Assembly (NCBI RefSeq): GCF_002786325.1 | Contig: NZ_PGTB01000001.1 | Span: 1 to 64,000 of the forward strand | Source of the DNA: Pseudooceanicola lipolyticus | GTDB lineage: Bacteria > Pseudomonadota > Alphaproteobacteria > Rhodobacterales > Rhodobacteraceae | Direction of reading: 5' to 3' | DNA length: 64,000 nucleotides | Shown here: piece after piece, positions 1,962-63,928 of the stretch | Numbering within the stretch: the first letter of the stretch is position 1 | Layout of the letters: the number at the start of each line of letters is the position of its first letter | The notes under the pieces: model-generated | What the model was told of the DNA's origin: nothing | The model's database searches: none | What the model saw: the letters and a program-made list of their open reading frames with translations, nothing else | Position numbers and translations under genes: made by a program

Positions 1962-2734
1962 CGGGCGGCCCTGCAGACCAGGTCCAGGTCGAGTGCGGCG
2001 ATGCTGAGCGTGCCGCCGGCTGCCGTTCCGGCCCAGTTGACCCCCTGGGCCGCGGTCGCGCGGGCGGCAAGCGCGGTGCAATCGTCGAAATCCAGCACGG
2101 CGCGGGCAAAGCGGTGGCGCGGCCCCTGCCGCAGCTCCAGCGCGAAGGCGCCCAGCTCCAGCAGCCAGCCGGCGTCGGCGCGTTGCACCCCAATGTCCAG
2201 TACCCGCGCGTACAGGGCGGCCTCGGCCTTGGGATCGGGGCTGTCGGCGACCAGGCGCGACATCGCGCGAAAGCCGTTGGGATGCGTCATGTCCTCGGGC
2301 CGCCAGACCAGTTCGGGGGTGAAATGCTGGCAGAAATACACCCGCCCGGCGGGAAAGACGGTGGGCGCCAGCCGCACGGTGCGGAACCGGGCGTGGCGGG
2401 TTTCGTCCGCCAATTCGACGGGACGCGAAAATGCGATCGGTTCGGCCACTGCCAGCCCCTGCGCCGTCAACCGCGCGTACAACGCGTCCGGATCGTCGGT
2501 CTTGAAGACCAGGCCGCTCAGGCCCAGCGGGCTGTCCAGCACCTCCTGGCGCTGCTTGCCGGTCTCGGGCAGGCCCACCAGTTCCAGATAGGCCCCCGGC
2601 ACCACCGCCAGGTGATTGACCGATCCCAGCGAGTGATAGCCGCGCGGGGTCAGGGCAAAGCCCAGGGCGGTAAAGATCCGCGCGGCATCCTCCATGCCGC
2701 GCAGGGTGTTTATCACCAGGTGATCCAGTTCCAT
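1958..2734 (-). CDS. VOC-superfamily (glyoxalase-like) protein
   Basis: The 258-residue protein starts MELDHLVINT and continues GMEDAARIFTALGF, the beta-alpha-beta start of a glyoxalase-like VOC module, with a second module near residue 130 (TPELVWRPEDMTHPNGF). The His after MELD and the Glu of AYLELVG fit VOC metal-ligand positions, but the full metal set cannot be confirmed by eye. VOC proteins are isomerases, lyases, dioxygenases or binding proteins. It lies 3 bases after the thioesterase stop and overlaps the ligase start by 4 bases, so it is translationally coupled. Its reaction is unknown. Confidence 0.8.
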   Translation of the reverse strand: MELDHLVINTLRGMEDAARIFTALGFALTPRGYHSLGSVNHLAVVPGAYLELVGLPETGKQRQEVLDSPLGLSGLVFKTDDPDALYARLTAQGLAVAEPIAFSRPVELADETRHARFRTVRLAPTVFPAGRVYFCQHFTPELVWRPEDMTHPNGFRAMSRLVADSPDPKAEAALYARVLDIGVQRADAGWLLELGAFALELRQGPRHRFARAVLDFDDCTALAARATAAQGVNWAGTAAGGTLSIAALDLDLVCRAAR

Positions 2735-50136: not shown

Positions 50137-50822
50137 TGCTGGACGTTAACGGTCTTGAGGCCGGCTACGGAGAAAGCCAGATCCTGTTTGGCATCGACTT
50201 GCGCGTGAAGGAGGGCGAAGTCGTCACCCTTCTGGGCCGCAACGGTATGGGCAAGACCACCACGATCAAATCGATCTTCGGTCTGGTCAAGCCGCGCGCG
50301 GGCAGCGTCAAGGTTGGCGGCAAGAACCTGACAGGGGCCGATCCCCACAAGATTGCGATGGCCGGTCTGGGCTATGTCCCCGAAGGCCGCCAGATTTTCC
50401 CCACTCTGAATGTCGAGGAAAACCTGCGGGCAACGGCCCGTCCCGGAAAATGGACGATCGACAAGATCTACGACCTCTTTCCGCGCCTGAAAGAGCGCCG
50501 GCGCAATATGGGCAACCAGCTTTCGGGCGGAGAGCAGCAGATGCTGGCCATCGGGCGCGCGCTGATGACCAATCCGCAGCTGATGGTGCTGGACGAGGCA
50601 ACCGAAGGCCTGGCGCCGCTGATCCGCGCCGATATCTGGTCCTGTCTTGCGCGGCTGAAACAGGAAGGCGAAGCGATCCTGGTAATCGACAAGAACGTCG
50701 ACGCGCTCACCAAGTTCGCTGACCGCCACATCGTGATCGAAAAGGGCCGCGTCGTCTGGACCGGCACCACCGAACAGATCCTTGCAACCCCCGAGGTTAA
50801 GGATCGTTTCCTCCACGTCTAA
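50136..50822 (+). CDS. livF: ABC transporter ATP-binding protein, LivF-like
   Basis: The 228-residue protein has LNVEENL and GYVPEGRQIFPTL wording of LivF, Walker A GRNGMGKTT (about 34-42), signature LSGGEQQMLAIGRAL and Walker B LMVLDEATEGLAP. The usual H-loop His is replaced by Lys in LVIDKNVDAL; LivF proteins normally read VEQN there, so the switch His is atypical in this subfamily anyway. ATG at 50136 is preferred to the GTG one codon before. Confidence 0.92.
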   Translation: MLDVNGLEAGYGESQILFGIDLRVKEGEVVTLLGRNGMGKTTTIKSIFGLVKPRAGSVKVGGKNLTGADPHKIAMAGLGYVPEGRQIFPTLNVEENLRATARPGKWTIDKIYDLFPRLKERRRNMGNQLSGGEQQMLAIGRALMTNPQLMVLDEATEGLAPLIRADIWSCLARLKQEGEAILVIDKNVDALTKFADRHIVIEKGRVVWTGTTEQILATPEVKDRFLHV

Positions 50823-50841
50823 AGTCCAAGGAGACCCCGAG

Positions 50842-51288
50842 ATGATACCAGGCGTCACGAAATCCAATACCGGTATCGAAGAGATTAGCTGGAACATACT
50901 TGGCCAGACATATGTGCCCAAGCAAAAGTCCGAAAACTCGATGGCCTGGCACGCGACCCTCCCAAAAGGCACCTTTGTGCCGCCGCATATTCATCCCACG
51001 CAGGATGAATTCATCTACGTTCTGGAAGGCCGTTTTGATGTGCTGCTGAACGGGGTCGAAACCTATGCCGAACCGGGCGATCTGATCCGGCTGCCCAAAG
51101 GCATTCCGCACGGCATCTACAACAAGACCGACCAGAGCATCAAATGCCTGTTCTGGGTCGCTCCAACTCGCAAGCTGTTCGATCTTTTCTGGGCGCTGCA
51201 CAATCTCGGGCCCGAGCCGAACCCGGCAGACGTCGTCGCCATCTCGGCCAAGCACGAGGTCGATTTCCTCCCACCCGAAGAGGCGTGA
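50842..51288 (+). CDS. Cupin-domain protein, paralogue of the one at 43290
   Basis: The 148-residue protein has cupin motif 1 FVPPHIHPTQDEFIYVLEGRFDVLLNG (His, His, Glu) and motif 2 GDLIRLPKGIPHGIYN (His). It shares with the earlier cupin the SEN-x3-WHA-x2-P-x-GT-x-VPPHIHP-x-QDE frame and the ISAKHEVDFLPP end, so the pair probably arose by duplication. AAGGAGACCCCGAG precedes the ATG, 19 bases after livF. It is 3 bases before the flavin monooxygenase gene, forming the second cupin/monooxygenase pair. Confidence 0.87.
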   Translation: MIPGVTKSNTGIEEISWNILGQTYVPKQKSENSMAWHATLPKGTFVPPHIHPTQDEFIYVLEGRFDVLLNGVETYAEPGDLIRLPKGIPHGIYNKTDQSIKCLFWVAPTRKLFDLFWALHNLGPEPNPADVVAISAKHEVDFLPPEEA

Positions 51289-51291
51289 TCC

Positions 51292-52539
51292 ATGACCGTC
51301 CTGATTGCAGGCGCGGGCATCGGCGGTCTGACCACCGCCCTGATGCTGCATGAACGTGGTATTTCCGTCGAAATCTACGAAGCCGCCCGCGAAGTGCGCG
51401 AGGTTGGGGTCGGCATCAACGTGCTGCCCCACGCCATTCGGGAACTGGCCAATCTCGGACTGCTCGACGCGCTCGACAAGGTCGGTGTCCGCACCCGCAA
51501 GCTGACTTATCTGACAAAACAGGGGCAGGAGGTTTGGAACGAACTGCGCGGCATGCATGCCGGGCATGAGGTGCCGCAGTTCTCGATTCATCGGGGCCGT
51601 CTTCAAAAGGTCATCTATGACGCGGTTGTCGAACGGCTGGGCAAAGACAAGATACACACGGGGCGTCGCCTGGCCGGTTTCATTCAGGACGAAGCGGGTG
51701 TCACCGCCCATTTCACCGACTCTGTACAGGGCGGCGACGCAACCACACACCGGGCCGAGGTTCTGCTTTGCGCCGACGGTATCCATTCGGCAGGGCGGCG
51801 ACATTTCTATCCGAACGAGGGCGCACCGTCCTGGCAGGGCGTGGTTATGTGGCGGGGAGCGGCGGAATGGCCGGTCTGGGAAGACGGCGAAAGCATGGCC
51901 ATCGGCGGCGGTCTGGGAGGCAAGTTCGTTCTCTACCCGATCGCACCCGCCGAAAAGGGCAAGCAGCTGCTGAACTGGGTCGTCAACGTCCGCATCAAGG
52001 ATCCCGAGATTTCGACCCCTCCGCCCGACAACTGGTCGCGCCAGGTCTCGCTGGCCGAAGTTCTGCCGCACGCCCTGCGCTTCCATGTTCCAGGAATGGA
52101 TATCGGCGGGCTGGTGAAGAAGACTCCAACGATCTACGAATACCCGATGGCAGATCGCGATCCGCTGCCGCGCTGGACCTTCGGCCGTGTCACGCTTCTG
52201 GGCGATGCGGCGCATCCGATGTATCCCGTGGGGTCGAATGGCGCATCACAGGCGATCCTCGACGCACGCTGCCTCGCCGATGCACTGGCCAAGGCGGAAC
52301 ATCCCCGCGCAGCACTTTGGCAATACGAAAAGGATCGCCTGCCCAAAACCGCCGAAGTGGTTCGAACCAATCGCATCGGTGGCCCGGAGCGTGTGATCGA
52401 CGAAGTTGAAAAGCGTGCCCCCGCCGGGTTCAAGTCCATCGACAAGGTCCTGTCCCATGACGACAGGAAAGCCATCGTCGGTGGCTATGCCAACATGGCC
52501 GGCTTTTCGCGGGTGACAGCAGCGCGGAGTGTCCCCTAG
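51292..52539 (+). CDS. FAD-dependent monooxygenase, salicylate-hydroxylase-like
   Basis: The 415-residue class A flavoprotein has VLIAGAGIGGLTTALMLHERG (about 3-23), EVGVGINVLPHAIREL, the DG motif LCADGIHSAGRR and the GD motif VTLLGDAAHPMYPVGSNGASQAILDARCL. It resembles salicylate and 6-hydroxynicotinate 3-monooxygenases, which hydroxylate or oxidatively decarboxylate a phenolic acid. It ends the operon of hydrolase, LIV importer and cupin. The exact ring substrate is unknown. Confidence 0.9.
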   Translation: MTVLIAGAGIGGLTTALMLHERGISVEIYEAAREVREVGVGINVLPHAIRELANLGLLDALDKVGVRTRKLTYLTKQGQEVWNELRGMHAGHEVPQFSIHRGRLQKVIYDAVVERLGKDKIHTGRRLAGFIQDEAGVTAHFTDSVQGGDATTHRAEVLLCADGIHSAGRRHFYPNEGAPSWQGVVMWRGAAEWPVWEDGESMAIGGGLGGKFVLYPIAPAEKGKQLLNWVVNVRIKDPEISTPPPDNWSRQVSLAEVLPHALRFHVPGMDIGGLVKKTPTIYEYPMADRDPLPRWTFGRVTLLGDAAHPMYPVGSNGASQAILDARCLADALAKAEHPRAALWQYEKDRLPKTAEVVRTNRIGGPERVIDEVEKRAPAGFKSIDKVLSHDDRKAIVGGYANMAGFSRVTAARSVP

Positions 52540-52983: not shown

Positions 52984-53724
52984 TCAGAGGGTCAGCCCAC
53001 CGTTCACATGCAGGGATTGACCCGTCACATAGCCTGCCGGCTCCGACAGCAGAAAGGCCGCGGTCGCTGCAACTTCCGCGGCCTGGCCGAGCCGCGCCAT
53101 CGGGATCGTCTTGGTCACCTCGGACCATTGCTCGGGTGTAAGCGACGAATGGGTGCCGGCATCTTTCGAGATAAAGCCCGGCACCACGGCGTTGACGGTG
53201 ATACCGCGCGGCGCAAGATTGGCGGCGAAGACGCGCACCTGCGCCTCCAGCGCGGCCTTGGCGGGGGCGGTGGGGGCATAGCTGTGAGTCTTGGACCGGT
53301 GGGCGCCGAATGCGCTGACACAGAGGATGCGCCCCCGATGATCGGCCAGTTTCGGTGCGATGTAGGTGCAGAGGCGCTGGAAGGCCACCGGCATCGCCTC
53401 CAGCGCAGCGTGCAGCGCGGCGGTGTCGGTGGTCTCGACGGTGCCCAGCTTGGCGTAGCCAGCGGCGAAGGCAAACCCACTCAGCGCGCCTGGTGGCAAG
53501 GGGTCCAGCCATGCTGCGATCTTGTCGATCAATGTCGGGTCTTCGGTCCGGCCCAGGCAGGTGGAGACGGTGGCGCCCGCCTTTTCACAGGCCTCGGCAA
53601 CACCGGCCAGACGATCCGCATTGGAACCGGTGTGCAGCAACAAGCCGATCCCCGGCGCGGCCAGTTGGCGCGCCAGCGCCGCACCAATTCCCGATCCGGC
53701 ACCTATGATGATGTAATGCGTCAT
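52984..53724 (-). CDS. SDR-family protein with atypical active site
   Basis: The 246-residue protein has the SDR cofactor motif IIIGAGSGIGAALARQLA, the Ser strand ILCVSAFGAH and the C-terminal PAGYVTGQSLHVNGGLTL. At the expected YxxxK it reads SYAPTAPAKAAL: the Lys can be aligned, but the residue four before it is Thr and the nearest Tyr is seven before. NNAG is also replaced by AFAAGYAK. It may be an unusual subfamily or non-canonical enzyme. GAGGAATTGAGCCG precedes the ATG; it follows the GntR gene by 42 bases and is probably in its operon. Confidence 0.82.
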   Translation of the reverse strand: MTHYIIIGAGSGIGAALARQLAAPGIGLLLHTGSNADRLAGVAEACEKAGATVSTCLGRTEDPTLIDKIAAWLDPLPPGALSGFAFAAGYAKLGTVETTDTAALHAALEAMPVAFQRLCTYIAPKLADHRGRILCVSAFGAHRSKTHSYAPTAPAKAALEAQVRVFAANLAPRGITVNAVVPGFISKDAGTHSSLTPEQWSEVTKTIPMARLGQAAEVAATAAFLLSEPAGYVTGQSLHVNGGLTL

Positions 53725-53766: not shown

Positions 53767-54462
53767 TCAGGATGAAGAACGGGTATAGACATGCCCGTAA
53801 GCGGCCTTGATCGCCGCCAGAATATCCTCGTTGCGGTGCAGGATATGGTCGCGCATGACGGCGATTGCAGCCTCGGTATCGCCGGCGCAGATGTGATCGA
53901 GGATCTCGCGGTGCTGATTCTGCGTGCGATCGCGTTGACCTTCCATGGCGATCCAGCGGATCAGGTGGATGCGACCGTTGATATTGGTAAGCAACTGCCG
54001 CAACACCTTGTTGCGGGCCAGTTCGGCAATGGTGTCGTGAAAGCGGATGTCGAGTTCGATCAGCCGGTCGACAGAGGCATCCGGGGGTTCTGCCATGCTT
54101 TCGTCCAGGAAGTCCGACAGCGCCTCGAGTTCCGCTTCCTCGGCCCGTTCGCAGGCCAGCCGCACCGTCGCGCATTCGATCTCGACCCGTGCTTCGAAGA
54201 GGTCGAAAATGACCTCCGGCTCCAGCCCCGGCACCGAGAAGCCGCGTTCCCGGTCCATCAACAATCCCTCGGCCACAAGTCGGTTCAGCGCCTCGCGCAG
54301 GGGGGTGCGGCTGATTTCAAGTTCCTTGGCCAGGGCGACCTCGTTGATCTTCTGCCCGGGCAGGAACCTGGAGCGGAGAAGTTGCTCTCGCAGCTGCGCA
54401 TGGGCGCGATGAGAGGAAGACACGTGAACGGCCTCGGTTGCGGCCTTGTTGTTCTTGTTCAT
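53767..54462 (-). CDS. GntR-family transcriptional regulator, FCD subfamily
   Basis: The 231-residue protein has the winged helix HAQLREQLLRSRFLPGQKINEVALAKELEISRTPLREALNRLVAEGLL and an FCD domain (LFEARVEIECATVRLACERAEEAE, LDIRFHDTIAELARNKVLRQLL, QHREILDHICAGDTEAA). It lies between the SDR and the MmgE/PrpD gene, all leftward. TGTATACA-type elements precede it, the divergent MmgE/AspDH promoter and tctC, making it the likely regulator of the whole module. Confidence 0.92.
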   Translation of the reverse strand: MNKNNKAATEAVHVSSSHRAHAQLREQLLRSRFLPGQKINEVALAKELEISRTPLREALNRLVAEGLLMDRERGFSVPGLEPEVIFDLFEARVEIECATVRLACERAEEAELEALSDFLDESMAEPPDASVDRLIELDIRFHDTIAELARNKVLRQLLTNINGRIHLIRWIAMEGQRDRTQNQHREILDHICAGDTEAAIAVMRDHILHRNEDILAAIKAAYGHVYTRSSS

Positions 54463-54487
54463 CGCGCGGGGCCCTCGGATTTCGTTC

Positions 54488-54507
54488 TGTATGCCGGATT
54501 GTATGTA
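54488..54507. promoter_or_regulatory. GntR operator candidate before its own gene
   Basis: TGTATGCC (54488-54495) and TGTATGTA (54500-54507) form a direct repeat with a 12-base period just upstream of the GntR start. The same word and 12-base spacing recur at 60789-60808, and a TGTATACA occurs at 55971-55978. Confidence 0.55.
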
Positions 54508-54540
54508 TTGTCGTACTTCGGCGTCAACGCACCATCAGGG

Positions 54541-55926
54541 TCAGGCATCGGGGGCCTGCGCCAGCAAGTCCATGAGCGCGCAGACATCGGGCGCGCTGAT
54601 CAGCGTTTCGCATGCCTGGGCCAGTGCCGTGCTGCGAGACTTCGAACAGACGGCGGTCGTTACCTCCGCGAATTTCAGGTCGAGCTCGTCCTGGCTGAGC
54701 GGCTGTTCCGGGTAGCCACGCGCCACTTTCGATGTCGCGGCAAGGGTCCGGCCATCCGTCAGGGTGAGAATGACTTCGCCCATGTAGAAATCCGGGAAAG
54801 CGTCGTTGAAGGTTCCAGTGTCTCGGATCACCTCGGCGGTCTTGGCAAGGCGGGCAACCTCGGGCTCGGTCTCGCGGCGGTCGATGAACAGATCGAGAAA
54901 CGACAGGCGTCCCATCGCCGCCCGGACCGGCAGGATATACTGCGCGGAATGGCCTTTGAGCGGGTTGTCGTCCACGCAATGCGCCCCGGCCTCGGCAAAG
55001 CGCAGGCTGATCTTGGCGATTTGATCGGAGGTCAGCGCATGTTCCTCGAGCAGTCCCACCAGGGCATCGAGAGCCGGGTGCAGGAAGGACACCGAGGCAT
55101 AGGGCTTGATCGCCAGTTCCATCACCCCGTCCCATCGGGTGCCGAGTTCCGCGGTCAGCGGCGCGGGATCGGCAACGCGGCTATAGGCATCCAGTACGGT
55201 GTGACCGCCGTCAAAGATGCGGTCCGGCGCGCCGAAGCCACGTTTGGCCAGCATCGCCGACATCACGCCGTTGCGCGCCGCCAATCCCATCTGGAAAGGC
55301 CGCGCATCCTCGCGCGGGTCATCCTGCCATGCGAGCAGGCCCGAGGTTTGCAGGCCGGCAAGCCCAAGCGCGCGCACGGTCTGTTCCTCGTTCAGGCGCA
55401 GCAGGAAGGCAGCGGCGGCAGCCGCGCCAAAGCTGCCTGCGACGGCGGAGGGGTGAAAGCCACGATCGTACAATTCCCGCGGGTTCATTGCCATCGAAAC
55501 GCGGTAGGTCATTTCGCACCCAAGCGCCACGGCGGCCAGTGCCTCGGCCCCGGTCCGGCCATGCGCCTCGGACAGGGCGAGGGCGGTGGGGATCATCACG
55601 GCGATCGGATGTAGGATCGCCTCGGGGTGATGCGGTTCGAAATCGGCGGCATAGCCGAGGGTCCCGTTGGCCAGCACGGCGCTGACCGGGTCCACCTTGC
55701 GATTCCGCCCGATCAGAGTGCAGGCGCCGGGCCCGGCAATGTCCTCGGCAAAATTGCCGATACCCTGCGCCGCGGTCACGCTTTTATGCGTGGCGGCGCA
55801 CAGCACGCCGATGCCGTCACTGGCCAGTTTGCGGGTATAGGCCATCACCTCGTCGGGCAGGGCGGTTGGGTCGAACCGCGAAACGAAGGCAGCAAGTGAG
55901 CGGGTAACTGGGGCGCGGTCGTTCAT
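54541..55926 (-). CDS. MmgE/PrpD family protein
   Basis: The 461-residue protein has family wording: SDGIGVLCAATHKSVTAAQGIGNFAED, LIGRNRKVDPVSAVLANGTLGYAADFEPHHPEAILHP, GCEMTYRVSMAMNPRELYDRGFHPSAVAGSFGAAAAAAFLL and RVADPAPLTAELG. MmgE/PrpD members are 2-methylcitrate dehydratases, cis-aconitate decarboxylases and iminodisuccinate epimerases. The context of amino-acid-type enzymes favours an epimerase or dehydratase of an amino polycarboxylate, but this is inference. It is divergent from the AspDH-like gene over 100 bases that hold an operator-like site. Confidence 0.88.
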   Translation of the reverse strand: MNDRAPVTRSLAAFVSRFDPTALPDEVMAYTRKLASDGIGVLCAATHKSVTAAQGIGNFAEDIAGPGACTLIGRNRKVDPVSAVLANGTLGYAADFEPHHPEAILHPIAVMIPTALALSEAHGRTGAEALAAVALGCEMTYRVSMAMNPRELYDRGFHPSAVAGSFGAAAAAAFLLRLNEEQTVRALGLAGLQTSGLLAWQDDPREDARPFQMGLAARNGVMSAMLAKRGFGAPDRIFDGGHTVLDAYSRVADPAPLTAELGTRWDGVMELAIKPYASVSFLHPALDALVGLLEEHALTSDQIAKISLRFAEAGAHCVDDNPLKGHSAQYILPVRAAMGRLSFLDLFIDRRETEPEVARLAKTAEVIRDTGTFNDAFPDFYMGEVILTLTDGRTLAATSKVARGYPEQPLSQDELDLKFAEVTTAVCSKSRSTALAQACETLISAPDVCALMDLLAQAPDA

Positions 55927-55970
55927 GGCGGATCCTTGAAAGGCAATGAAATTGGAGTTGCATATCTACC

Positions 55971-55990
55971 TGTATACATGACAGAGTACA
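55971..55990. promoter_or_regulatory. GntR operator candidate in the MmgE/AspDH divergent promoter
   Basis: TGTATACA (55971-55978, a perfect 8-base palindrome) is followed 12 bases on by AGAGTACA (55983-55990). Placed between divergent promoters, it could control both the MmgE/PrpD gene and the AspDH-AcnX operon. Confidence 0.6.
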
Positions 55991-56026
55991 GATATCAGTC
56001 AAGGCATTCGTGAGGGCGGCAAGGGC

Positions 56027-56845
56027 ATGACAGATACGACGCGGATCGTTTTGGGCGGCTTTGGCAACGTGGGCCAGCAGATCGCCGCCAAGTTGACAGC
56101 CGATCCCTCGCAAGCGCTCCGGATCGTCGCCATCGCGGCACGTGACAAACAGAAGGCCGCCGCGAATGCCGCAAAGTTCGGTCTGGAGGTCCCGGTGATT
56201 TCCGCGTCCGAGGCACCGCAATACGGTGCCATCCTCGTGGAATGCGCCACCTATAACGGCTTTCGCGACGTGGTCGAACCGACCCTGAGGGCCGGTGGCC
56301 ATGTCATCGCCGTGAGCGTTGGCGCGCTTGCCGTCAACCTTGACCTGATCGACATCGCCGAAGAGACCGGCGCCACCTTGCAGATTGCCGGTGGCACCTT
56401 GCCAGGGCTGGATATCATCCGCGCAGCGTCAGAGGACGAGATCACCTCTGTAACCCTGACCTCGCATATCAAGCCGTCGTCCTTTGCACACGAGCCGTTC
56501 ATCCATGACAACGGCATCGACCTGGCTTTGGCCGAACAGAGCGCGGTGCCCGTGTTCGAGGGCAGCGCGCGGGAGGCGGCAGGGCATTTTCCGCGCCATT
56601 TCAACGTGGCGGTGACGCTGGGGCTGGTGGGGATCGGGCTGGACCGGACACAGGTGCGCATCTTTGCCGACGGTACCTTGCCCGGTGCACGCCACACGCT
56701 CAGCGTCGAGGCCAGCGCCGCGTCGCTCGAGATGACCTCCCAGAATTATCCGTCGCCGCAGAATAACCGCACCAGCATGTTGGTGGCGCTCAGCATCCTT
56801 GCCGCGCTGCGGCGCGACCGCGCCACGCTCCGGATCGGAAGTTGA
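56027..56845 (+). CDS. L-aspartate dehydrogenase-like protein (NadX/AspDH family)
   Basis: The 272-residue protein has the NAD motif IVLGGFGNVGQQIAAKL (about 7-23), VECATYNGFRDVVEPTLRAGGHVIAVSVGALA, GTLPGLDIIRAA, HFPRHFNVAVTLGLVGIGLDRTQVRIFADGTLPGARHTLSVEA (the His of ARHTL fits the catalytic His) and QNYPSPQNNRTSMLVALSILAAL, all matching aspartate dehydrogenases. The family interconverts L-aspartate and iminosuccinate plus ammonia and oxaloacetate. First gene of a rightward operon, 3 bases before AcnX. It might reduce an imine made by AcnX instead. Confidence 0.87.
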   Translation: MTDTTRIVLGGFGNVGQQIAAKLTADPSQALRIVAIAARDKQKAAANAAKFGLEVPVISASEAPQYGAILVECATYNGFRDVVEPTLRAGGHVIAVSVGALAVNLDLIDIAEETGATLQIAGGTLPGLDIIRAASEDEITSVTLTSHIKPSSFAHEPFIHDNGIDLALAEQSAVPVFEGSAREAAGHFPRHFNVAVTLGLVGIGLDRTQVRIFADGTLPGARHTLSVEASAASLEMTSQNYPSPQNNRTSMLVALSILAALRRDRATLRIGS

Positions 56846-56848
56846 CCG

Positions 56849-58114
56849 ATGCAACTGTCCGAGCGCGACCAAACATTGCTGGACGGGGCCGCGGGCGAGG
56901 CGGCGCAGCAGGCGATGTCGGCGCTGGTCCAGCTGGGCGAGGCCTATGATGCGCCGGACATGGTCGACATCGGCTATGCCCATGTCCATGCGGGCATGGC
57001 GCTGTACAAGGGCGACGTGGAGCTGATCGAGGCCACTGCACAACAGGGTGCACGGATGGTGGTGCCGGCGTCCACCAATATTGCCAATGCCGATATGGGC
57101 GACTGGCAGGGCATCGGGGCCCCCGAAACGCTTGGCCGCTTGCAGAAACGTGCAGAAGCCGCCCACCGCAGGATGGGCAGCGCGACCTCCTTTACCTGCA
57201 CGCCCTACTGGGCCGGACACTGGCCGACTTGGAACATGCATATCGCCTCGATCGAAAGCGGGGTGACGGTGTTTGCCAATTCGGTGCTGGGCGCCCGGTC
57301 AAACCGCGACGGCTATTTTGCGGTCTATGCGGGGATGACCGGGCGCTATCCTCGCTTTGGGCTGCATCTGGACCGCAACCGCCAGCCGACCCATCGCGTC
57401 ACGGTTTCGGCCCAGCCCCGCGGCACCGCGGAATTCACCGCGCTTGGTTATGCTGTCGGAACGGCGGTGGGCAGCGGCGTGCCGCTGATCCAAGGGATCC
57501 GCAGGCGCCCTTCGCTGGATGAACTTGATGCCCTGGGGGTGGGCATGGCGACCTCGGGCGGGGTGGCGATGTTCATCCTGCCGGGCGCGACGCCGCCGTT
57601 CGGCGAAGACGCTGATGCACCTGGTCTGCCGGAGATCGAGATTGCTGAGGCGGAGATCGCCGGCGTGTTCGATACCTTCTGTACCGGGGGCGAAGCCGGG
57701 TTTGACCTTGTGCATCTTGGCTGTCCACACGCGTCATTCGAGGAAATGAAATACTATGCCGAACTGCTGGCCGGGCGTCGGGTTGCGCCGGGCGTGGAGC
57801 TTTGGATCACCACCAGCCGCGCGGTGCGCCAGACGGCGCGCGAGGCCGGTCTGCTGGCCCCGCTCCTGGCCTCGGGCGCGCGGGTTGTCACGGATACCTG
57901 CCCGATTTCCTGTCATTTCGCCTGCACATGTTCGCCGGACCCCGCGCTTGGGGTCACGCCACCGACCCTGCGGACGATCCTTGTCGACAGCGCCAAGCAG
58001 GCACATTACGTGCGCGACATGATCCAGTGCCCGACGCTGTTCACAACCAGTGAACTGGCGGTGGAATCGGCGGTCACCGGTCGTTTCGTGCCCCGGAGTC
58101 GCCGCAATGGCTGA
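56849..58114 (+). CDS. Aconitase X catalytic (large) subunit
   Basis: The 421-residue protein has AcnX (DUF521) wording: MVDIGYAHVHAGMALYKGDVELIE, PASTNIANADMGDW, SATSFTCTPYWAGHWPTWNMHIASIESGVTVFANSVLGARSNRDG, DLVHLGCPHASFEEM and DTCPISCHFACTC followed by LVDSAKQAHYV. The Cys residues in FTCTPY, LGCPH and DTCPISC are candidates for the iron-sulfur ligands. Known AcnX activities are cis-3-hydroxy-L-proline dehydratase in bacteria and phosphomevalonate dehydratase in archaea. The small subunit is separate and overlaps by 8 bases, so this is a two-subunit type. Its substrate here is unknown. Confidence 0.9.
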   Translation: MQLSERDQTLLDGAAGEAAQQAMSALVQLGEAYDAPDMVDIGYAHVHAGMALYKGDVELIEATAQQGARMVVPASTNIANADMGDWQGIGAPETLGRLQKRAEAAHRRMGSATSFTCTPYWAGHWPTWNMHIASIESGVTVFANSVLGARSNRDGYFAVYAGMTGRYPRFGLHLDRNRQPTHRVTVSAQPRGTAEFTALGYAVGTAVGSGVPLIQGIRRRPSLDELDALGVGMATSGGVAMFILPGATPPFGEDADAPGLPEIEIAEAEIAGVFDTFCTGGEAGFDLVHLGCPHASFEEMKYYAELLAGRRVAPGVELWITTSRAVRQTAREAGLLAPLLASGARVVTDTCPISCHFACTCSPDPALGVTPPTLRTILVDSAKQAHYVRDMIQCPTLFTTSELAVESAVTGRFVPRSRRNG

Positions 58115-58523
58115 GACTTCGTGGCAGGCACGCGGCGTGGTCAGGGGCGTGGCGGATGGCGCCGCCCTGGTCTCGCAAACGGCGCTTTCGTTTCTGGGTG
58201 ATCTCGATATCCGGTCGGGCCGGGTGGTGGGGCGTTCCAGCGATCTGTGCGGCGAATGTGTTGCCGGTCGGGTGCTGGTGCTGCCCGCGAGCCGGGGGTC
58301 GGCCGGGGCATGGCGGTTCCTGTACCAGCTCAAGATGCATGACACCCATCCGGCGGCGCTGATCCTGCGGGAAATGCCCGACCCCTCGGTGACGCAGGGC
58401 GCGATCCTGGCGGAGGTGCCGGTGGTGGTGGCGCCGGAAGGCACATTCTGGACCAACATGCGCGGCGGAGACATCCTGCGCGTCGATGGCAGCAGCGGCA
58501 GAATTGAACGGTGCCAGCGATGA
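58107..58523 (+). CDS. Aconitase X swivel-domain (small) subunit
   Basis: The 138-residue protein is the DUF126 type: RGVVRGVADGAALVSQTALSFLGDLDIRSGRVVG, VLVLPASRGSAGAWRFLYQLKMHDTHPAALIL and AILAEVPVV. The PASRGSAGAW loop is the conserved serine-containing swivel motif of aconitase-like enzymes. It pairs with the large subunit encoded just upstream with 8-base overlap, which ensures equal synthesis. It ends 55 bases before the flavin oxidase. Confidence 0.9.
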   Translation: MAETSWQARGVVRGVADGAALVSQTALSFLGDLDIRSGRVVGRSSDLCGECVAGRVLVLPASRGSAGAWRFLYQLKMHDTHPAALILREMPDPSVTQGAILAEVPVVVAPEGTFWTNMRGGDILRVDGSSGRIERCQR

Positions 58524-58578
58524 CTGCCATCAATGCAGGCAAGGGCGTCAAGGCTTTCGGAATGGGGAAGGATTGTAG

Positions 58579-59838
58579 ATGAAGGCGGATATCGCTGTCC
58601 TTGGGGCAGGAATCATCGGCGCTCACACCGCCGTTCAGCTTGCCGAGCGAGGGCTGAAGGTGGTGCTGGTTGATCCCGGCCCGCCGGGCGGAGAGCAGGC
58701 GGCCAGTTTCGGCAATGCCGCATGGTTGTCGTCACATTCGGTGACGCCGCCCACGTCGCCGGGGATCTGGAAACAGGTGCCGAAATGGCTGCGCGATCCG
58801 CTTGGGCCGTTGAGCCTGCGGCCTGCATATCTGCCCAAGGCATTGCCCTGGTTGCTGCAGTATCTGTCGGCGGGGGCGACGGAACAGAAACTGCGCGGAA
58901 TCGCAGCCGAATTGCGCACCTTGCTGATCGACGCGCCGAAACTGCACGCAGAGATTGCAACCCGTGCAGGCGTGCCAGAGCTGATCGATGCCGACAGCGG
59001 CCTGATGCATATCTATCCTGACCGCGCAAGTTACGAGGCCGATGGGCTTGGCTGGCGTATCCGTCGCGAATTGGGGATCGTCTGTGACGAAATCGAGGGG
59101 CCCGAACTGGCCCGGTGCCAGCCGGATCTGGCAAGAACCTACACCTTTGCCGTCAACGTGCCGGAGGCCGGGCAATGCCTGGACCCCGGCGCTTATTGCG
59201 CGGCGCTGGTCAGCTTTGCCCAGTCGATGGGCGCGCGGCGGATTGCGGCCCATGCAACCGGTTTTCGCAGCGAGAATGGCAGGCTGCGGGCCGTCGAAAC
59301 ATCACAAGGGGAGATCGCCTGCGATGCCGCCGTCATCGCCTGTGGCGCCAGATCGGCGGCGCTGGCCAGGAAGGCTGGCGACCGTGTGCCGCTTGAGAGC
59401 GAGCGGGGATACCATGTGACGGTCGAGGGCGGCGCGAACATGCCCGGGCCAACAACATCGGTGATGGTGAGCGACCGCAAGGTGGTGATCACGCGGCTGG
59501 CTCAGGGTATCCGCTGCGCCGGGCAGGTGGAGATCGCCGGCCCGGATGCGGCGCCGGACTGGCGCCGGGCCGAGATCATGCGGACCCACCTTGCCGCGAT
59601 CTTTCCGGGCCTGGATACCAGCGATGCGCGGGTCTGGCTGGGGCTGCGGCCCAGCCTGCCGGACGGCAAGCCGGTGATCGCTGCCGCACGGAACATCAAG
59701 GGTGTCGTGCATTGTTTTGGGCATGGCCATGTCGGGCTGGTTTCATCGGCGCGCAGCGGCCGGCTCGCCGCCCAGCTGGTCACGGGCGAAACCCCCGAAA
59801 TCGACCTTGCCCCGTTTTCCTCTGATCGGTTCCGCTGA
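58579..59838 (+). CDS. FAD-dependent amine/D-amino acid oxidase (DadA-like)
   Basis: The 419-residue protein has IAVLGAGIIGAHTAVQLAERGLKVVLVD (about 5-32) at the N-terminus, GGEQAASFGNAAWLS (a typical DadA second motif), the substrate-binding middle, and VWLGLRPSLPDGKPVIAAARNIKGVVHCFGHGHVGLVSSARSGRLAAQLVTGE at the C-terminus. Such enzymes oxidise D-amino acids or secondary amines such as sarcosine or proline derivatives. AAGGATTGTAG precedes the ATG. Its stop overlaps the racemase-like gene start by one base. Confidence 0.92.
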   Translation: MKADIAVLGAGIIGAHTAVQLAERGLKVVLVDPGPPGGEQAASFGNAAWLSSHSVTPPTSPGIWKQVPKWLRDPLGPLSLRPAYLPKALPWLLQYLSAGATEQKLRGIAAELRTLLIDAPKLHAEIATRAGVPELIDADSGLMHIYPDRASYEADGLGWRIRRELGIVCDEIEGPELARCQPDLARTYTFAVNVPEAGQCLDPGAYCAALVSFAQSMGARRIAAHATGFRSENGRLRAVETSQGEIACDAAVIACGARSAALARKAGDRVPLESERGYHVTVEGGANMPGPTTSVMVSDRKVVITRLAQGIRCAGQVEIAGPDAAPDWRRAEIMRTHLAAIFPGLDTSDARVWLGLRPSLPDGKPVIAAARNIKGVVHCFGHGHVGLVSSARSGRLAAQLVTGETPEIDLAPFSSDRFR

Positions 59839-60602
59839 TGAATGATCCGGTTCAACCCTATGGTGCGCCCGGTACCCATGTGGCGCGCGGCGGAAAGGCG
59901 CTGTATGGCGCACCCCTTGGCATCCTGATGCTGGAGGCGCGATTTGCCCGCGTCTATGGCGAGATGGGACATGCGCGGACATGGCCCTTTCCGGTGATTT
60001 ACCGGATCGTGCGGGGCGCCAGCCCGGACCGGGTGGTCTGTGACGGCGCGCGCGGGCTGCTGGATGATTTCATCGCCGCTGCGCGCGACCTGGTCGACCT
60101 GGGCGCAGAGGCGATCACAACGAATTGCGGTTTCCTGTCCATCTACCAGGCCGAACTGGCCCAAGCGGTGAGCGTGCCGGTGGCGACATCCTCCATGATG
60201 CAGGTGCCCTGGGTGCAGGCCACCCTGCCACCGGGCAAGCGACCGGGCATTGTGACGATCAATTCCGCCGGGCTGACGCCAGCCCATCTGAACGGAATCA
60301 ACGTCCCGCTCGACACTCCGGTGGCCGGGACCGAGGACGGGACAGAGTTCTTTCGCACCATCATCAAGGCCGAAAAGCAGGATCTCGATCTGGCGCTGGC
60401 CTGCGCAGATGTGGTCGCAGCCGCGAGGCGCCTTGTGCGCGAGAACCCGGATGTTGGCGCTATCGTGCTGGAATGCACCAATATGTCGCCTTACAGCGCT
60501 GCGGTGCAGGCGGCGAGCGGACTGCCGGTCTATGACATCTATTCGATGGTCACCTGGTTTCACGCGGGACTTCGACCCCGGAACTTTACGGCAGGCGGAT
60601 AA
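59838..60602 (+). CDS. Asp/Glu/hydantoin racemase-superfamily protein
   Basis: The 254-residue protein has the two conserved cysteines of the Asp/Glu racemase superfamily, in TTNCGFLSIYQ (about residue 96) and VLECTNMSPYSAA (about 213), and KRPGIVTINSAGLTPAHL between them. Typical activities are racemisation of aspartate, glutamate or hydantoins, and related decarboxylase or isomerase steps. Its one-base overlap with the DadA-like gene suggests it supplies or removes the D-form. TctC follows after 294 bases containing an operator-like site. Confidence 0.85.
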   Translation: MNDPVQPYGAPGTHVARGGKALYGAPLGILMLEARFARVYGEMGHARTWPFPVIYRIVRGASPDRVVCDGARGLLDDFIAAARDLVDLGAEAITTNCGFLSIYQAELAQAVSVPVATSSMMQVPWVQATLPPGKRPGIVTINSAGLTPAHLNGINVPLDTPVAGTEDGTEFFRTIIKAEKQDLDLALACADVVAAARRLVRENPDVGAIVLECTNMSPYSAAVQAASGLPVYDIYSMVTWFHAGLRPRNFTAGG

Positions 60603-60896
60603 CACCAGGCCGGGTCGACCGCAGCACAGGTGCGAACTGGCAGTGTCTGCACCGAACCGCCCGGACCCGAAATGGTCGAGACTCATCCCGCGATCGCGGG
60701 CGCAATGGCTGATTTCATGGGCGATTCCGTGATATTCCCTGTGCGTGATAAGGGGCTCCAACAAAAACCGTTGCAATGCACTCTGGTCTGTATATTGTTC
60801 TGTATACATCTCACGCGCCCCTCGGGGAGATACACTTAGAAAAGCGGACCTCAAGCATACGGCGGCTCCGCAATAACATCACAGAGAGGACCAAAC
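60603..60896 (+). promoter_or_regulatory. Promoter region of tctCBA with paired operator elements
   Basis: No gene is seen in these 294 bases. The paired words TGTATATT (60789-60796) and TGTATACA (60801-60808), 12 bases apart, match those before the GntR gene and the MmgE/AspDH promoter. AGAGAGGACCAAAC precedes the tctC ATG. The importer therefore has its own regulated promoter besides readthrough from the racemase-like gene. Confidence 0.55.
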
Positions 60897-61880
60897 ATGG
60901 CTTTCACGAAAGCTCTGCGCACAGCCCTGACCGGCCTGGCAATTCTTGCCACCGGGACACTGGCCGCCGGCGCACAGGATTTCCCGAAAAAGGACATCAC
61001 CCACATCATGCCGTGGAGCGCGGGCGGTGGGACCGACACTGTCATGCGCACTTTCCTTCACTATGCCGAGGAACCGCTTGGGGTGGGCATCCGCACCCAG
61101 AATGTCACCGGCGCACAGTCCGGTGTCGGCACGCTGCGGCTGATGAAGTCTCGGCCCGATGGCTATACCATCGGCTCCCTGACCTGGGACAGCATGATCA
61201 CCGTGCCCTACAAGAATCTCGTGCCGGGGTATGACACCGCCTCGCTGAGCTATCTTGCCAATGTCACGCTTTACCCCACGGTTCTGGCCGTCAACGCGGA
61301 CACCGGCTGGGACACGCTGGATGATTTCATCGCTGCCGCAAAGGCAGCGCCGGGTGAAGTCACCGTGTCCGATTCCGGCATCGGCGGCATCTGGCACCTG
61401 CACGCGCTCGACATGGCCGAGCAATTGGGTGTCGAACTGAACCACGTGCCCTTCCCCAACGGCTCGGCCGAACAGCGCGAGGCGCTGATCTCGGGCGAAA
61501 ACGACGCCGCAAGCCTGAGCTATGCCACCGTGTCTTCCGCTGCTGAGGCCGGGCAGGTGAAGGTGCTGGCCGTGATGGGGTCGGAACGCGATCCCAGCCT
61601 GCCGGATGTGCCGACCTTCACCGAACTGGGCTATGACGTGATCTGGGGCGGCATGCGGGTGCTGGCCGTGCCCGCCGAGACGCCGGATGAGATCAAGGCG
61701 ACCCTGACCGCAGGGTTCAAGGCCGCTTTCGACAACCCCGAGTTTCAGCAAAAGGCCGCCGACACGGGCATGAATGCCTTCTGGATGGATGGCCCCGCGA
61801 CCGAGGCCTATGTCGAGCGCACCCAGACCCGCGCCCTGAAGCTGCTGGACCGGCTGAAATCCGAGGGTGTGCTGGAATAA
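60897..61880 (+). CDS. tctC: Tripartite tricarboxylate transporter substrate-binding protein, TctC
   Basis: The 327-residue protein has a signal peptide (MAFTKALRTALTGLAILATGTLAAGA) and TctC wording: FPKKDITHIMPWSAGGGTDTVMRTFL, YKNLVPGYD, GIGGIWHLHALDMAEQLGVELNHVPFPNGSAEQREALISGENDAA and LPDVPTFTELGYDV. It gives high affinity to the TTT importer. The ligand is an anionic organic acid or amino acid; nothing more can be said from sequence. Confidence 0.93.
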   Translation: MAFTKALRTALTGLAILATGTLAAGAQDFPKKDITHIMPWSAGGGTDTVMRTFLHYAEEPLGVGIRTQNVTGAQSGVGTLRLMKSRPDGYTIGSLTWDSMITVPYKNLVPGYDTASLSYLANVTLYPTVLAVNADTGWDTLDDFIAAAKAAPGEVTVSDSGIGGIWHLHALDMAEQLGVELNHVPFPNGSAEQREALISGENDAASLSYATVSSAAEAGQVKVLAVMGSERDPSLPDVPTFTELGYDVIWGGMRVLAVPAETPDEIKATLTAGFKAAFDNPEFQQKAADTGMNAFWMDGPATEAYVERTQTRALKLLDRLKSEGVLE

Positions 61881-61907
61881 TCGGCCTTCCTGCTACCTTC
61901 TTGTACA

Positions 61908-61938
61908 GCGCCCCGACCGTATCAAACGGGCGGGGCGC
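61908..61938 (+). other. Intercistronic hairpin between tctC and tctB
   Basis: GCGCCCCG (61908-61915) and CGGGGCGC (61931-61938) are perfectly complementary, and CCGT/ACGG inside extend the stem. No T-run follows, so it is likely to stabilise or part-terminate the tctC message. This would give more binding protein than membrane protein. Confidence 0.6.
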
Positions 61939-61973
61939 ATTTCGAATGACCATGCCGGGAAAAGGCGCTTCCA

Positions 61974-62441
61974 TTGACGATGAAACCCCAAGCTGTTTTC
62001 GCGCTCCTCATCCTCGCGCTTGATGCGGCATATCTGCAGCAGGCGCTACAGTTGCCATTGCCCTTCGCCAACGGTGAACCCGGCCCATCGCTGATGCCCC
62101 TGGTGCTTGTTCTCACGCTTGGGATCGGGGCGCTTGGCGTTCTGGTGCAGGAATTGCGCGGGACTGCGACGCATGACGACGACGAGGATGCCGGTTTCAG
62201 CCTGCGCACCATCGCGCTGATCGGGCTGACCTGCGGCTTTGTCTGGGCCTTCGAGCCGCTGGGATACTGGTACGCGACACTTTCCTACGCCTTCGGCGTG
62301 GCGTGGCTGTTCGAACAGGAAAGGCTGGGGCCGGTGAAGGCCGTGCTGACCTCTGCGCTGATCGCGGTGGGCATTGCCGGTGCAGGGTGGCTGTTCTTTG
62401 TCACTCTCTTCGATCTCTTCCTGCCCGAGGGGTATAATTGA
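61974..62441 (+). CDS. tctB: Tripartite tricarboxylate transporter small membrane protein, TctB
   Basis: The 155-residue protein has four hydrophobic segments (AVFALLILALDAAYL, SLMPLVLVLTLGIGALGVLV, TIALIGLTCGFVWAFEPLGYWYATLSYAFGVAWLF, AVLTSALIAVGIAGAGWLFFVTLFDLFLP), the TctB pattern. AAGG lies 8 bases before TTG at 61974, but ATG at 61980 is a possible start. The stop overlaps tctA by TGATG. Confidence 0.85.
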   Translation: MTMKPQAVFALLILALDAAYLQQALQLPLPFANGEPGPSLMPLVLVLTLGIGALGVLVQELRGTATHDDDEDAGFSLRTIALIGLTCGFVWAFEPLGYWYATLSYAFGVAWLFEQERLGPVKAVLTSALIAVGIAGAGWLFFVTLFDLFLPEGYN

Positions 62442-63928
62442 TGTTCGCTGAACTGATGGGCGGTTTTGCCGCCCTCGCCAATCCGGAGACCTTTCTTTAC
62501 CTGGTGGGCGGGTTTCTGATGGGGCTGGTCTTTGGCGCCATTCCCGGTTTGACCGCCACGCTGGCCATTGCGTTGCTCTTGCCCTTTACCTTCGCAATGG
62601 AACTGACCAACGCGCTGGTGATGGTCATGGCCATCTTCATGTCGGGCATCTACGCGGGTTCCGTCACCGGCATCACGGTGAATATCCCCGGCGCGGCCTC
62701 CGGCGCCATCACGACCCTGGAAGGCCATGCCCTCATGAAGCGCGGAGAGGGTGCCAAGGCGCTGAGCCTCGATGCGCTGGCCTCGTCGATCGGCGGCGTT
62801 CTGGGGGCTGCGGTATTGATGTTCGTCGCCGTCCCGATGAGCCAATTCGCGCTGTTGTTTCATACGCCTGACAAGTTCGCGCTGGTCTTTATGGCGGTGG
62901 TCACCGTGGTGATCGTCGCCAAGGGGTCTATCTGGAAAAGCCTTGTGACGGTATCATTGGGTCTGATGATATCGACGGTGGGCTTTGACAATATGGTGGC
63001 GCAGGGGCGGTTCGATTTCGGCAGCGCCAACCTGATCGAAGGGATCCAGCTTTTGCCCGCTGTCATCGGTCTTTTCGCGGTTTGCGAATTGCTGCTGCAG
63101 GGGGGGGCAAAGGCCCGCGCTGCCGCCGACACGCCCGCGTTCAAGGTCAAGCACAAGGATTTCTGGCCGGATTGGAAAAAGGTGCGCGAGATCGGTTTTC
63201 TGACCTATCTGAAAAGTTCGGTGATCGGGGTCATGATCGGGATGCTGCCCGGCGGCGGTGCGTCGATGGCTTCCTTCGTCGCCTATGCCGAGGCCAAGCG
63301 CGTCAGCAAGACACCTCAGAACTATGGCAATGGATCGCACGAGGGGCTGGCGGCGGCGGAATCGGCCAACAACGCCATGTGCGGCGGGGCTGTCGTGCCC
63401 CTGCTGACACTGGGCATTCCGGGGGATTCCGTCACCGCGATCATCTTCGGAGTGCTGCTGATCCACGGCCTGGTCCCGGGGCCGGGACTTTTGACCACCG
63501 AGATGGCAACCGTCGCGCCGATGTTCGCGGCCCTGATGGTGGCGGCGGTTTTCGTCTTTCTGTCAGTTCTCGTCTTCGGACCTTATTACATCTGGCTGGC
63601 GCGGATGAACCGGGGGGTGCTTTATGCCTTTATCGCGATGATCGCGATGGTGGGCACCTATGCCTCGACCTACTCGGTGTTCCAGATGTGGATGGCGCTG
63701 GCCATCGGCATATTCGGATGGTCGCTGCGGCTGATGTCTTATCCCCTCGTACCGCTGCTGATGGGCATCATCCTTGGTCCATATCTTGAGCTCTACATGC
63801 GGCGGTCATTGATCACGTCGAACGGCGACGTGATGACGTTTTTCAGCAGTCCGATCAGCATCGGCCTGTATGCCATGACGCTTCTGTTCATCTACTTCCT
63901 GCGGTTCAAGCCGCCCAAGGCGGCATGA
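62441..63928 (+). CDS. tctA: Tripartite tricarboxylate transporter large membrane protein, TctA
   Basis: The 495-residue membrane protein has TctA motifs: GLVFGAIPGLTATLAIALLLPFTFAM, GIYAGSVTGITVNIPGAASGAITTLEGHALMKRGEG, and the second-half repeat SSVIGVMIGMLPGGGASMASFVAYAEAKRVSKTP, AESANNAMCGGAVVPLLTLGIPGDSVTAIIFGVL. About twelve segments are visible. With TctBC it forms a cation-coupled importer. Confidence 0.94.
   Translation: MFAELMGGFAALANPETFLYLVGGFLMGLVFGAIPGLTATLAIALLLPFTFAMELTNALVMVMAIFMSGIYAGSVTGITVNIPGAASGAITTLEGHALMKRGEGAKALSLDALASSIGGVLGAAVLMFVAVPMSQFALLFHTPDKFALVFMAVVTVVIVAKGSIWKSLVTVSLGLMISTVGFDNMVAQGRFDFGSANLIEGIQLLPAVIGLFAVCELLLQGGAKARAAADTPAFKVKHKDFWPDWKKVREIGFLTYLKSSVIGVMIGMLPGGGASMASFVAYAEAKRVSKTPQNYGNGSHEGLAAAESANNAMCGGAVVPLLTLGIPGDSVTAIIFGVLLIHGLVPGPGLLTTEMATVAPMFAALMVAAVFVFLSVLVFGPYYIWLARMNRGVLYAFIAMIAMVGTYASTYSVFQMWMALAIGIFGWSLRLMSYPLVPLLMGIILGPYLELYMRRSLITSNGDVMTFFSSPISIGLYAMTLLFIYFLRFKPPKAA

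Follow-up and report, generated by a model that had tools for sequence, protein, structure and literature searches.

The 64,000-nt stretch of Pseudooceanicola lipolyticus contig NZ_PGTB01000001.1 (GCF_002786325.1) analyzed here, hereafter the window, carries an island of genes that includes both subunits of a protein of the aconitase X (AcnX) family (Table 1). Ten island genes, encoding a GntR/FCD transcription factor, an MmgE/PrpD-family protein, an aspartate-dehydrogenase-like (AspDH-like) protein, the AcnX large and small subunits, a DadA-like FAD oxidoreductase, an Asp/Glu-racemase superfamily protein and the three TctCBA transport proteins, had been listed in a first-pass annotation; all ten lie where it placed them and fall in the families it named, with best Pfam E-values of 3e-9 to 2e-127. 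The list omitted a short-chain dehydrogenase/reductase (SDR) gene, which lies 42 nt past the GntR gene on the same strand, adjoins GntR in close relatives and belongs to the island set; the SDR-type NCBIfam scores of its product are all below cut-off among the matches listed (25 of 129). Genes are tightly packed inside each presumed transcript, with the couplings noted in the first pass: a 3-nt gap separates the AspDH gene from that of the AcnX large subunit, and overlaps of 8, 1 and 4 nt join the two AcnX genes, the DadA and racemase genes, and the TctB and TctA genes, respectively.

Table 1. Features of the island and its operator-like sites (window coordinates)
Feature	Position	Strand	Basis or remark
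SDR oxidoreductase	52984..53724	-	SDR-type NCBIfam matches; proposed third gene of an MmgE-GntR-SDR transcript
GntR/FCD transcription factor, proposed island regulator	53767..54462	-	PF07729, PF00392
Operator-like tandem TGTAT-N7-TGTATGTA, GntR/MmgE gap	54488..54507		0 mismatches
MmgE/PrpD-family protein	54541..55926	-	PF03972/PF19305; closest PDB entry 2hp3, iminodisuccinate epimerase, E 6.5e-29
Operator-like sites, divergent MmgE/AspDH promoter gap, TGTATACA at 55971	55959..55990		Pattern matches, conserved in relatives
Aspartate-dehydrogenase-family oxidoreductase (AspDH-like)	56027..56845	+	PF01958, PF03447
AcnX large subunit	56849..58114	+	PF04412, E 1.1e-107
AcnX small subunit, swivel domain, motif GSAGAWR	58107..58523	+	PF01989, E 1.2e-21
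DadA-like FAD amino-acid oxidoreductase	58579..59838	+	PF01266; NF001933, 206 of 383 bits
Asp/Glu-racemase superfamily protein	59838..60602	+	PF01177; NF005679, 314 bits, cut-off 231 exceeded
Operator-like TGTATATTGTTCTGTATACA upstream of TctC	60789..60808		Pattern match, conserved in relatives
TctC substrate-binding protein	60897..61880	+	PF03401
TctB	61974..62441	+	PF07331
TctA	62438..63928	+	PF01970

The promoter gaps of the island share operator-like sites. The window holds two copies of the word TGTATACA, at 55971 and 60801, against 0.06 expected, and two or more copies were reached in none of 100 shuffles of the 64-kb stretch; the two positions correspond to the MmgE/AspDH promoter and the TctC promoter, both inside the island. 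When up to two mismatches are allowed, the pattern TGTAT-N7-TGTATRYA is matched six times (both strands counted, overlapping frames included), always between 54488 and 60808 and confined to three island promoter gaps, a number reached in none of 100 shuffles; since this pattern was composed after viewing the sites, its expectation of 0.37 is a lower bound on chance. In 221 kb from 12 close-relative loci we found 33 copies of TGTATACA. They lie 36–50 bp from the MmgE match in the 11 close loci with a divergent MmgE/AspDH pair, and upstream of TctC by 94–104 bp in seven loci and by 178–181 bp in two; relocated genes carry their own copy (MmgE in locus L052, the DadA operon in L053). Seven close loci contain a gene for a thiamine diphosphate (ThDP)-dependent enzyme more than 80% identical to that of L082, used as the query: the word lies 45–68 bp upstream of this gene in three of them and 37–70 nt inside the predicted frame in the other four, where the predicted start is probably too early. 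No copy was present in 124 kb surrounding seven AcnX genes of other types, nor in 160 kb from ten plasmid loci (nine chosen via AspDH and one via AcnX). The operator is therefore a trait of the close relatives; L073 and L081 hold additional copies. As far as shared and conserved operator-like sites show, these data support both the common operator-like word reported in the first-pass annotation and its view of the island as one co-regulated catabolic unit.

The gene set recurs in other genomes. At the order level, an AcnX match of any kind was found in 76 of 390 genomes and an ortholog in four (82–100% identity, the next best match being 36%); AspDH orthologs (76–100%) and MmgE orthologs (75–100%) occur in exactly the same four genomes, which belong to four genera, and two other genomes of the 390 have AspDH matches of 32–38%. 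At the class level, two more genomes of 385 encode an AcnX of 62–63% identity, and at the phylum level none of the 398 genomes beyond the window's own has this AcnX, the only match being one of 36% with an Asp/Ile signature. A wider contig scan, which searched for the peptide patterns PYWAGHW and [ML]V[DE]IGYAH, retrieved 43 AcnX loci. Most come from Alphaproteobacteria; the record titles of a few name Burkholderiales, Acidimicrobiia or other groups. In 41 of the 43, the match spans more than 90% of the large subunit, and 24 of these 41 have at least 8 kb on both flanks. In these 24 loci, tblastn counts, which include weak matches, gave the AcnX small subunit in 24, AspDH in 21, MmgE in 20, the ThDP enzyme in 16, the racemase and the SDR in 14 each, a VOC protein in 13, GntR in 12, DadA in 10 and an enolase-type protein in 5; the weak matches are those to the ThDP enzyme in L047, L083 and L084 (25–33%), to MmgE in L083 and L084 (27–28%) and to DadA in L057 and L081 (34–35%). 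Transporters are exchanged: TctCBA is present in 10 loci, a TRAP-TAXI system in 6 and a polar amino-acid ABC transporter in 4 (two of them, L062 and L070, weak), and 19 loci have at least one of these three. Seven control loci with other AcnX types yielded one AspDH match (32%), one Tct match (26–35%) and one partial SDR, with no MmgE and no island-type racemase. The neighborhood search proposed in the first pass thus finds AcnX, AspDH and MmgE together, a linkage that persists from one bacterial family to another. That the genes are mere chance neighbors without a common pathway, a view with nothing in its favor but the variable outer genes, is highly improbable: it is contradicted by their occurrence in the same four of 390 genomes, by the conserved operator-like sites and their statistics, and by the linkage in the 24 flanked loci. 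Note that in L083, L084 and L087 (a bacterium metagenome-assembled genome, or MAG, and two Acidimicrobiia MAGs) a same-clade AcnX lies between two racemase genes. In L084, which has no AspDH match, a class I/II aminotransferase gene accompanies those of AcnX, two racemases and a remote MmgE; this locus also encodes an Ldh_2-type dehydrogenase, an acyl-CoA dehydrogenase and another ThDP enzyme.

Residues of the window AcnX were mapped by alignment to the solved chains of AtAcnX, which acts on cis-3-hydroxyproline, and TkAcnX, the type IIb archaeal mevalonate 5-phosphate dehydratase, with roles taken from the part of Watanabe et al. 2021 (PMC8184944) available to us. Island AcnX shares with AtAcnX (32% identity over the aligned part) PF04412 and the swivel domain, the Ser base, Glu, Ser, Lys, Tyr and two cluster cysteines, and with TkAcnX (34% over the aligned part) the two-subunit organization and the three cluster Cys positions. 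The window protein retains the base Ser65 in the small subunit (S), together with Glu136, Ser137, Lys383, Tyr387 and Asn77; its cluster cysteines Cys117, Cys292 and Cys351 are the TkAcnX set, so that the third stands at the TkAcnX position (Cys292), whereas no residue of the set aligns with Cys510 of AtAcnX. The cluster in the TkAcnX crystal is [3Fe-4S], regarded in the same source as derived from [4Fe-4S] (PMC8184944). The two subunits, scored apart against a model built for the fused protein, reach 269.6 and 61.6 bits. In the large subunit (L), Glu136, Lys383, Tyr387, Cys117, Cys292 and Cys351 are invariant in 41 rows (40 loci plus the window, L067 being below limits) and His47 is present in 39; in the small subunit, Ser65, Ala66, Gly67, Trp69 and Arg70 are invariant in 32 rows. 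Because the loci were retrieved with PYWAGHW and [ML]V[DE]IGYAH, invariance in those segments, His124 included, arises partly by construction. That this AcnX would act by dehydrating a beta-hydroxy acid is well supported by its residues.

The residues that define the known substrates are, in contrast, replaced. The four cis-3-hydroxyproline contacts of AtAcnX, Trp35, Thr72, Asp203 and Ile206, correspond to Leu30(S), Gly67(S), His47(L) and Met50(L), and AtAcnX Cys71 and Asn294 to Ala66(S) and Gly138(L) in the window (Gly or Thr at the latter position across the island group). Thr72 and Asp203 are described as holding the substrate nitrogen (available part of PMC8184944); their replacement means that the amine contact is not conserved, so that a simple repeat of the hydroxyproline reaction is less likely. 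An identification as a cis-3-hydroxyproline dehydratase was rejected on this residue comparison. The TkAcnX phosphate-binding site (Gly48, Val49, Ser50 and Asn53) is not kept either, the aligned residues being Ala48, Gly49 and Met50, with no aligned Asn. At the positions of His47 and Met50, 22 of 32 non-island AcnX rows have Asp/Ile and two have Asp/Leu; His at the first position recurs in one remote non-island row, L045 (26% identity). The 41 island rows form one clade among 75 tips (FastTree, midpoint-rooted, support 0.849). By its residues, the window AcnX thus appears to represent an uncharacterized subclass with neither known substrate signature. In the available part of Watanabe et al. 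2021 (PMC8184944), types IIc–IIf are described as uncharacterized and as having no landmark residue of either known function, and their characterization as possibly helpful to verify hypotheses about the AcnX family; island AcnX is likewise bacterial, two-subunit and devoid of these landmarks, and so fits these types as a group. The basic residues His47(L) and Arg70(S), the latter a near neighbor of the base in sequence, suggest a further anionic group on the substrate. Another two-subunit AcnX group (L104 8001-9688 on a Paroceanicella plasmid; also L007, L008 and L010) has Ala47, Tyr/Trp50, Leu77 and Cys292; the L104 gene stands beside an IlvD-type dehydratase, an FAD oxidoreductase and TRAP genes, and the group likely has a different substrate.

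The AspDH-like protein stays under all eight NCBIfam AspDH cut-offs (the best, NF009825, with 203 of 253 bits). Its His223, invariant in 33 rows, aligns with Archaeoglobus fulgidus His189 and is the family His of L-aspartate dehydrogenases; with the fold domains and this His present, L-aspartate activity is putative. A second AspDH-family gene (37%) occurs in the same genome on contig C349 (L113 9204-10022), near transport genes as judged by eye. AspDH also occurs in modules without this AcnX. A Rhizobium locus (L101) combines an amino-acid ABC transporter with a racemase (37%), DadA (43%), AspDH (41%) and a ThDP enzyme in two pieces; a Shinella locus (L116) combines a binding protein, MmgE (49%), AspDH (44%), a ThDP enzyme (59%), an amino-acid ABC transporter and GntR, and its 4.6-Mb record has no AcnX of the island subclass, only one of 32% identity far from the locus. 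Pseudomonas aeruginosa PA3505 and its neighbors form an AspDH/ThDP/SDR cluster, on the function of which we found no paper. As AspDH and MmgE can occur without AcnX in such modules, AcnX seems to have joined as an extra step in the present lineage, and AspDH may serve deamination rather than directly follow AcnX.

These observations bear on the reaction chain put forward in the first-pass annotation, in which AcnX would form iminosuccinate by dehydration of a 3-hydroxyaspartate isomer, for reduction to L-aspartate by the AspDH-like enzyme, with MmgE, the racemase and DadA feeding stereoisomers. AspDH lies directly upstream of AcnX, 3 nt away, and nearby in 21 of the 24 loci; it retains His223; and His47(L) and Arg70(S) are candidate ligands of a further acidic group. 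For cis-3-hydroxyproline, such a succession of AcnX and an imine reductase is known (available parts of PMC5144071 and PMC8184944). Against the chain, the AtAcnX residues that hold the nitrogen are Gly67(S) and His47(L) here; where this AcnX is missing, AspDH occurs with MmgE and ThDP genes or with racemase, DadA and ThDP genes; the ThDP enzyme, found in 16 of 24 loci, has no evident role if the path ends in aspartate; and L084, a locus without an AspDH match, has an aminotransferase nearby. We regard the chain as possible but doubtful. It would be the iron-sulfur counterpart of the dehydratase and iminosuccinate reductase pair of the beta-hydroxyaspartate cycle. The dehydratase of that cycle is a pyridoxal phosphate enzyme and its iminosuccinate reductase belongs to the ornithine-cyclodeaminase family, unlike the AcnX and AspDH-like proteins of the island. 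The logic of a dehydratase followed by an imine reductase would be shared with the cycle (PMC8166194).

The MmgE protein retains H106, Y153, H158 and K274, which align with active-site residues of iminodisuccinate (IDS) epimerase and Bacillus subtilis IRG1; H106 and Y153 match both proposed bases of IDS epimerase (His99 and Tyr145). The active site of IRG1 is said to be completely conserved with that of IDS epimerase in the available part of PMC7347537. IDS epimerase being the closest PDB match, the substrate could be an amino polycarboxylate of the iminodisuccinate type, which MmgE would epimerize and the AspDH-like or DadA-like enzyme would open at the C–N bond, the racemase and DadA using the D-aspartate half and AcnX a hydroxylated form; the polar amino-acid ABC importers of some relatives agree with it. 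We consider this unlikely. B. subtilis IRG1 matches MmgE about equally well (E 4.4e-28), and its Arg100, Lys200 and Cys271 are replaced by Ile, Arg and Val in the alignment as read, so that three other pocket positions differ; a Pfam search recognized no lyase among the island genes; and IDS is known as a substitute for ethylenediaminetetraacetate (EDTA) (from a title cited in PMC7347537, available in part), which fits poorly with a gene set kept across many environmental lineages.

Could the island instead process a citrate-like acid imported by TctCBA, with AcnX and MmgE as a dehydratase/hydratase pair and with a hydroxy acid, not an amine, as the substrate of the AspDH-like enzyme? The genes for TctCBA, MmgE/PrpD and an aconitase-superfamily protein do form one cluster, and AspDH-family genes are also found elsewhere in clusters with sugar-type ABC transporters. 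Yet the genes that come after AcnX, read in the same direction, encode the DadA-like oxidase and the racemase, the His typical of the AspDH family is retained and relatives have amino-acid ABC transporters, so that a tricarboxylate pathway seems improbable. The two Cys of the racemase (in TTNCGF and LECTNM) are present in the window and in 15 of 18 aligned relatives, the exceptions being L075 and L078, with Thr at the second Cys, and L068, which lacks the first stretch.

Relatives add genes for a ThDP enzyme, a VOC protein and an enolase-superfamily protein beside the unit. Their ThDP enzyme retains the catalytic Glu, that of an RDER motif. Glyoxylate carboligase, the second-best PDB group, has Val in place of that Glu, and the enzyme was therefore rejected as a carboligase of this kind. 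In the window, a cupin-like and then an FAD-monooxygenase-like protein (50782-52539, plus strand, judged by eye) lie beyond the SDR gene, on the side of the island where relatives have the ThDP gene. The window's own genome has only distant matches to the island VOC protein (35% and 31%); a VOC/glyoxalase-like stretch at 2132-2629 (minus strand, 35% identity to the L082 island VOC) lies far from the island and is probably unrelated to it.

The operator-like word is also associated with ThDP genes outside the AcnX loci. In six roseobacter plasmid loci (five chosen from 51 records with a ThDP match, one via the racemase), TGTATACA lies 39–81 bp upstream of a ThDP gene 59–80% identical to the island one, in six of the six examined. 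These loci (L115 11119-14354, on the Ruegeria pomeroyi megaplasmid, L117, L118, L120, L121 and L123) come from R. pomeroyi, Pacificitalea, two Leisingera, Qingshengfaniella and Ruegeria THAF33. The adjacent regulator is a GntR protein in four (38–42% identity to that of the window) and a LysR protein in two; each locus has at least one of the racemase, DadA-like, Tct and TRAP genes, and the varying partners include a cystathionine gamma-lyase-like gene. The stretches examined contain no AcnX, AspDH or MmgE match, and the window differs in turn by having no ThDP gene. These loci look like a wider roseobacter regulon.

Taken together, we think it probable, though well short of certain, that the island is a catabolic regulon induced by its substrate, an acidic amino acid, or a compound resembling one, with two or more carboxylates. 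We infer a scheme in which the GntR/FCD protein would bind TGTATACA-type operators at the MmgE-GntR-SDR, AspDH-AcnX-DadA-racemase and TctCBA promoters, and TctCBA would import the compound. D- or N-substituted forms would fall to the racemase and the DadA-like oxidase; the AspDH-like enzyme would convert the L-amino acid to its imine or its 2-oxo acid and back, and in many relatives the ThDP enzyme may act on the 2-oxo acid; and MmgE/PrpD would epimerize or dehydrate a (hydroxylated) polycarboxylate form. The two-subunit AcnX, with its TkAcnX-type iron-sulfur site, would dehydrate a beta-hydroxy-carboxylate intermediate by anti elimination, Ser65(S) acting as base and Lys383 and Glu136 at the leaving hydroxyl. 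The amino-acid character, already proposed in the first pass, agrees with the polar amino-acid ABC transporter genes of some relatives and with the amino-acid ABC transporters of the sister modules; the earlier interpretation as a whole is partly supported.

Several points weigh against this regulon. Each of the racemase, DadA, SDR and GntR genes is lacking in 10–14 of the 24 loci and so is accessory or lies beyond the 8-kb flank. Only three copies of TGTATACA were found in 497 kb from 31 more distant island loci, which means that the operator does not accompany the gene set generally. The window's own genome (439 contigs) has no close relative of the ThDP enzyme, the best match being 35%: either the pathway ends differently there or a partner is missing. 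Two loci with an AcnX 54–56% identical, L085 and L086, have neither AspDH nor MmgE, and Ala/Gln in place of His47/Met50; they perhaps form a sub-branch with another substrate. Tct-family binding proteins accept many carboxylates, so the amino-acid reading depends on the other enzymes and on the relatives. As for the hosts of the two divergent loci, L085 is a MAG and L086 is Chitinasiproducens palmae, where AcnX lies beside an ABC transporter, an AMP-binding enzyme and an enoyl-CoA hydratase.

In line with the first-pass statement that the combination is undescribed, our literature search found no paper pairing AcnX with AspDH or MmgE: the families are known, and the function of the subclass, its regulon and its partners are undescribed in the literature searched. 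Through the island, one uncharacterized AcnX group now has recurring partners, an operator with its likely regulator, and named isolates for study (by record titles, for example Sedimentitalea, Pseudooceanicola, Salipiger and Stella), so that the substrate of AcnX can be sought directly, and the recurrence of the gene set in related bacteria makes the question testable. Should AcnX and the AspDH-like enzyme form an iron-sulfur route from a beta-hydroxy acidic amino acid through an imine to an amino acid, which is tentative at best, this would be the first activity for this bacterial two-subunit AcnX subclass, and that of an AcnX accepting a second carboxylate, with His47(L), Arg70(S) and His124(L) as candidate residues.

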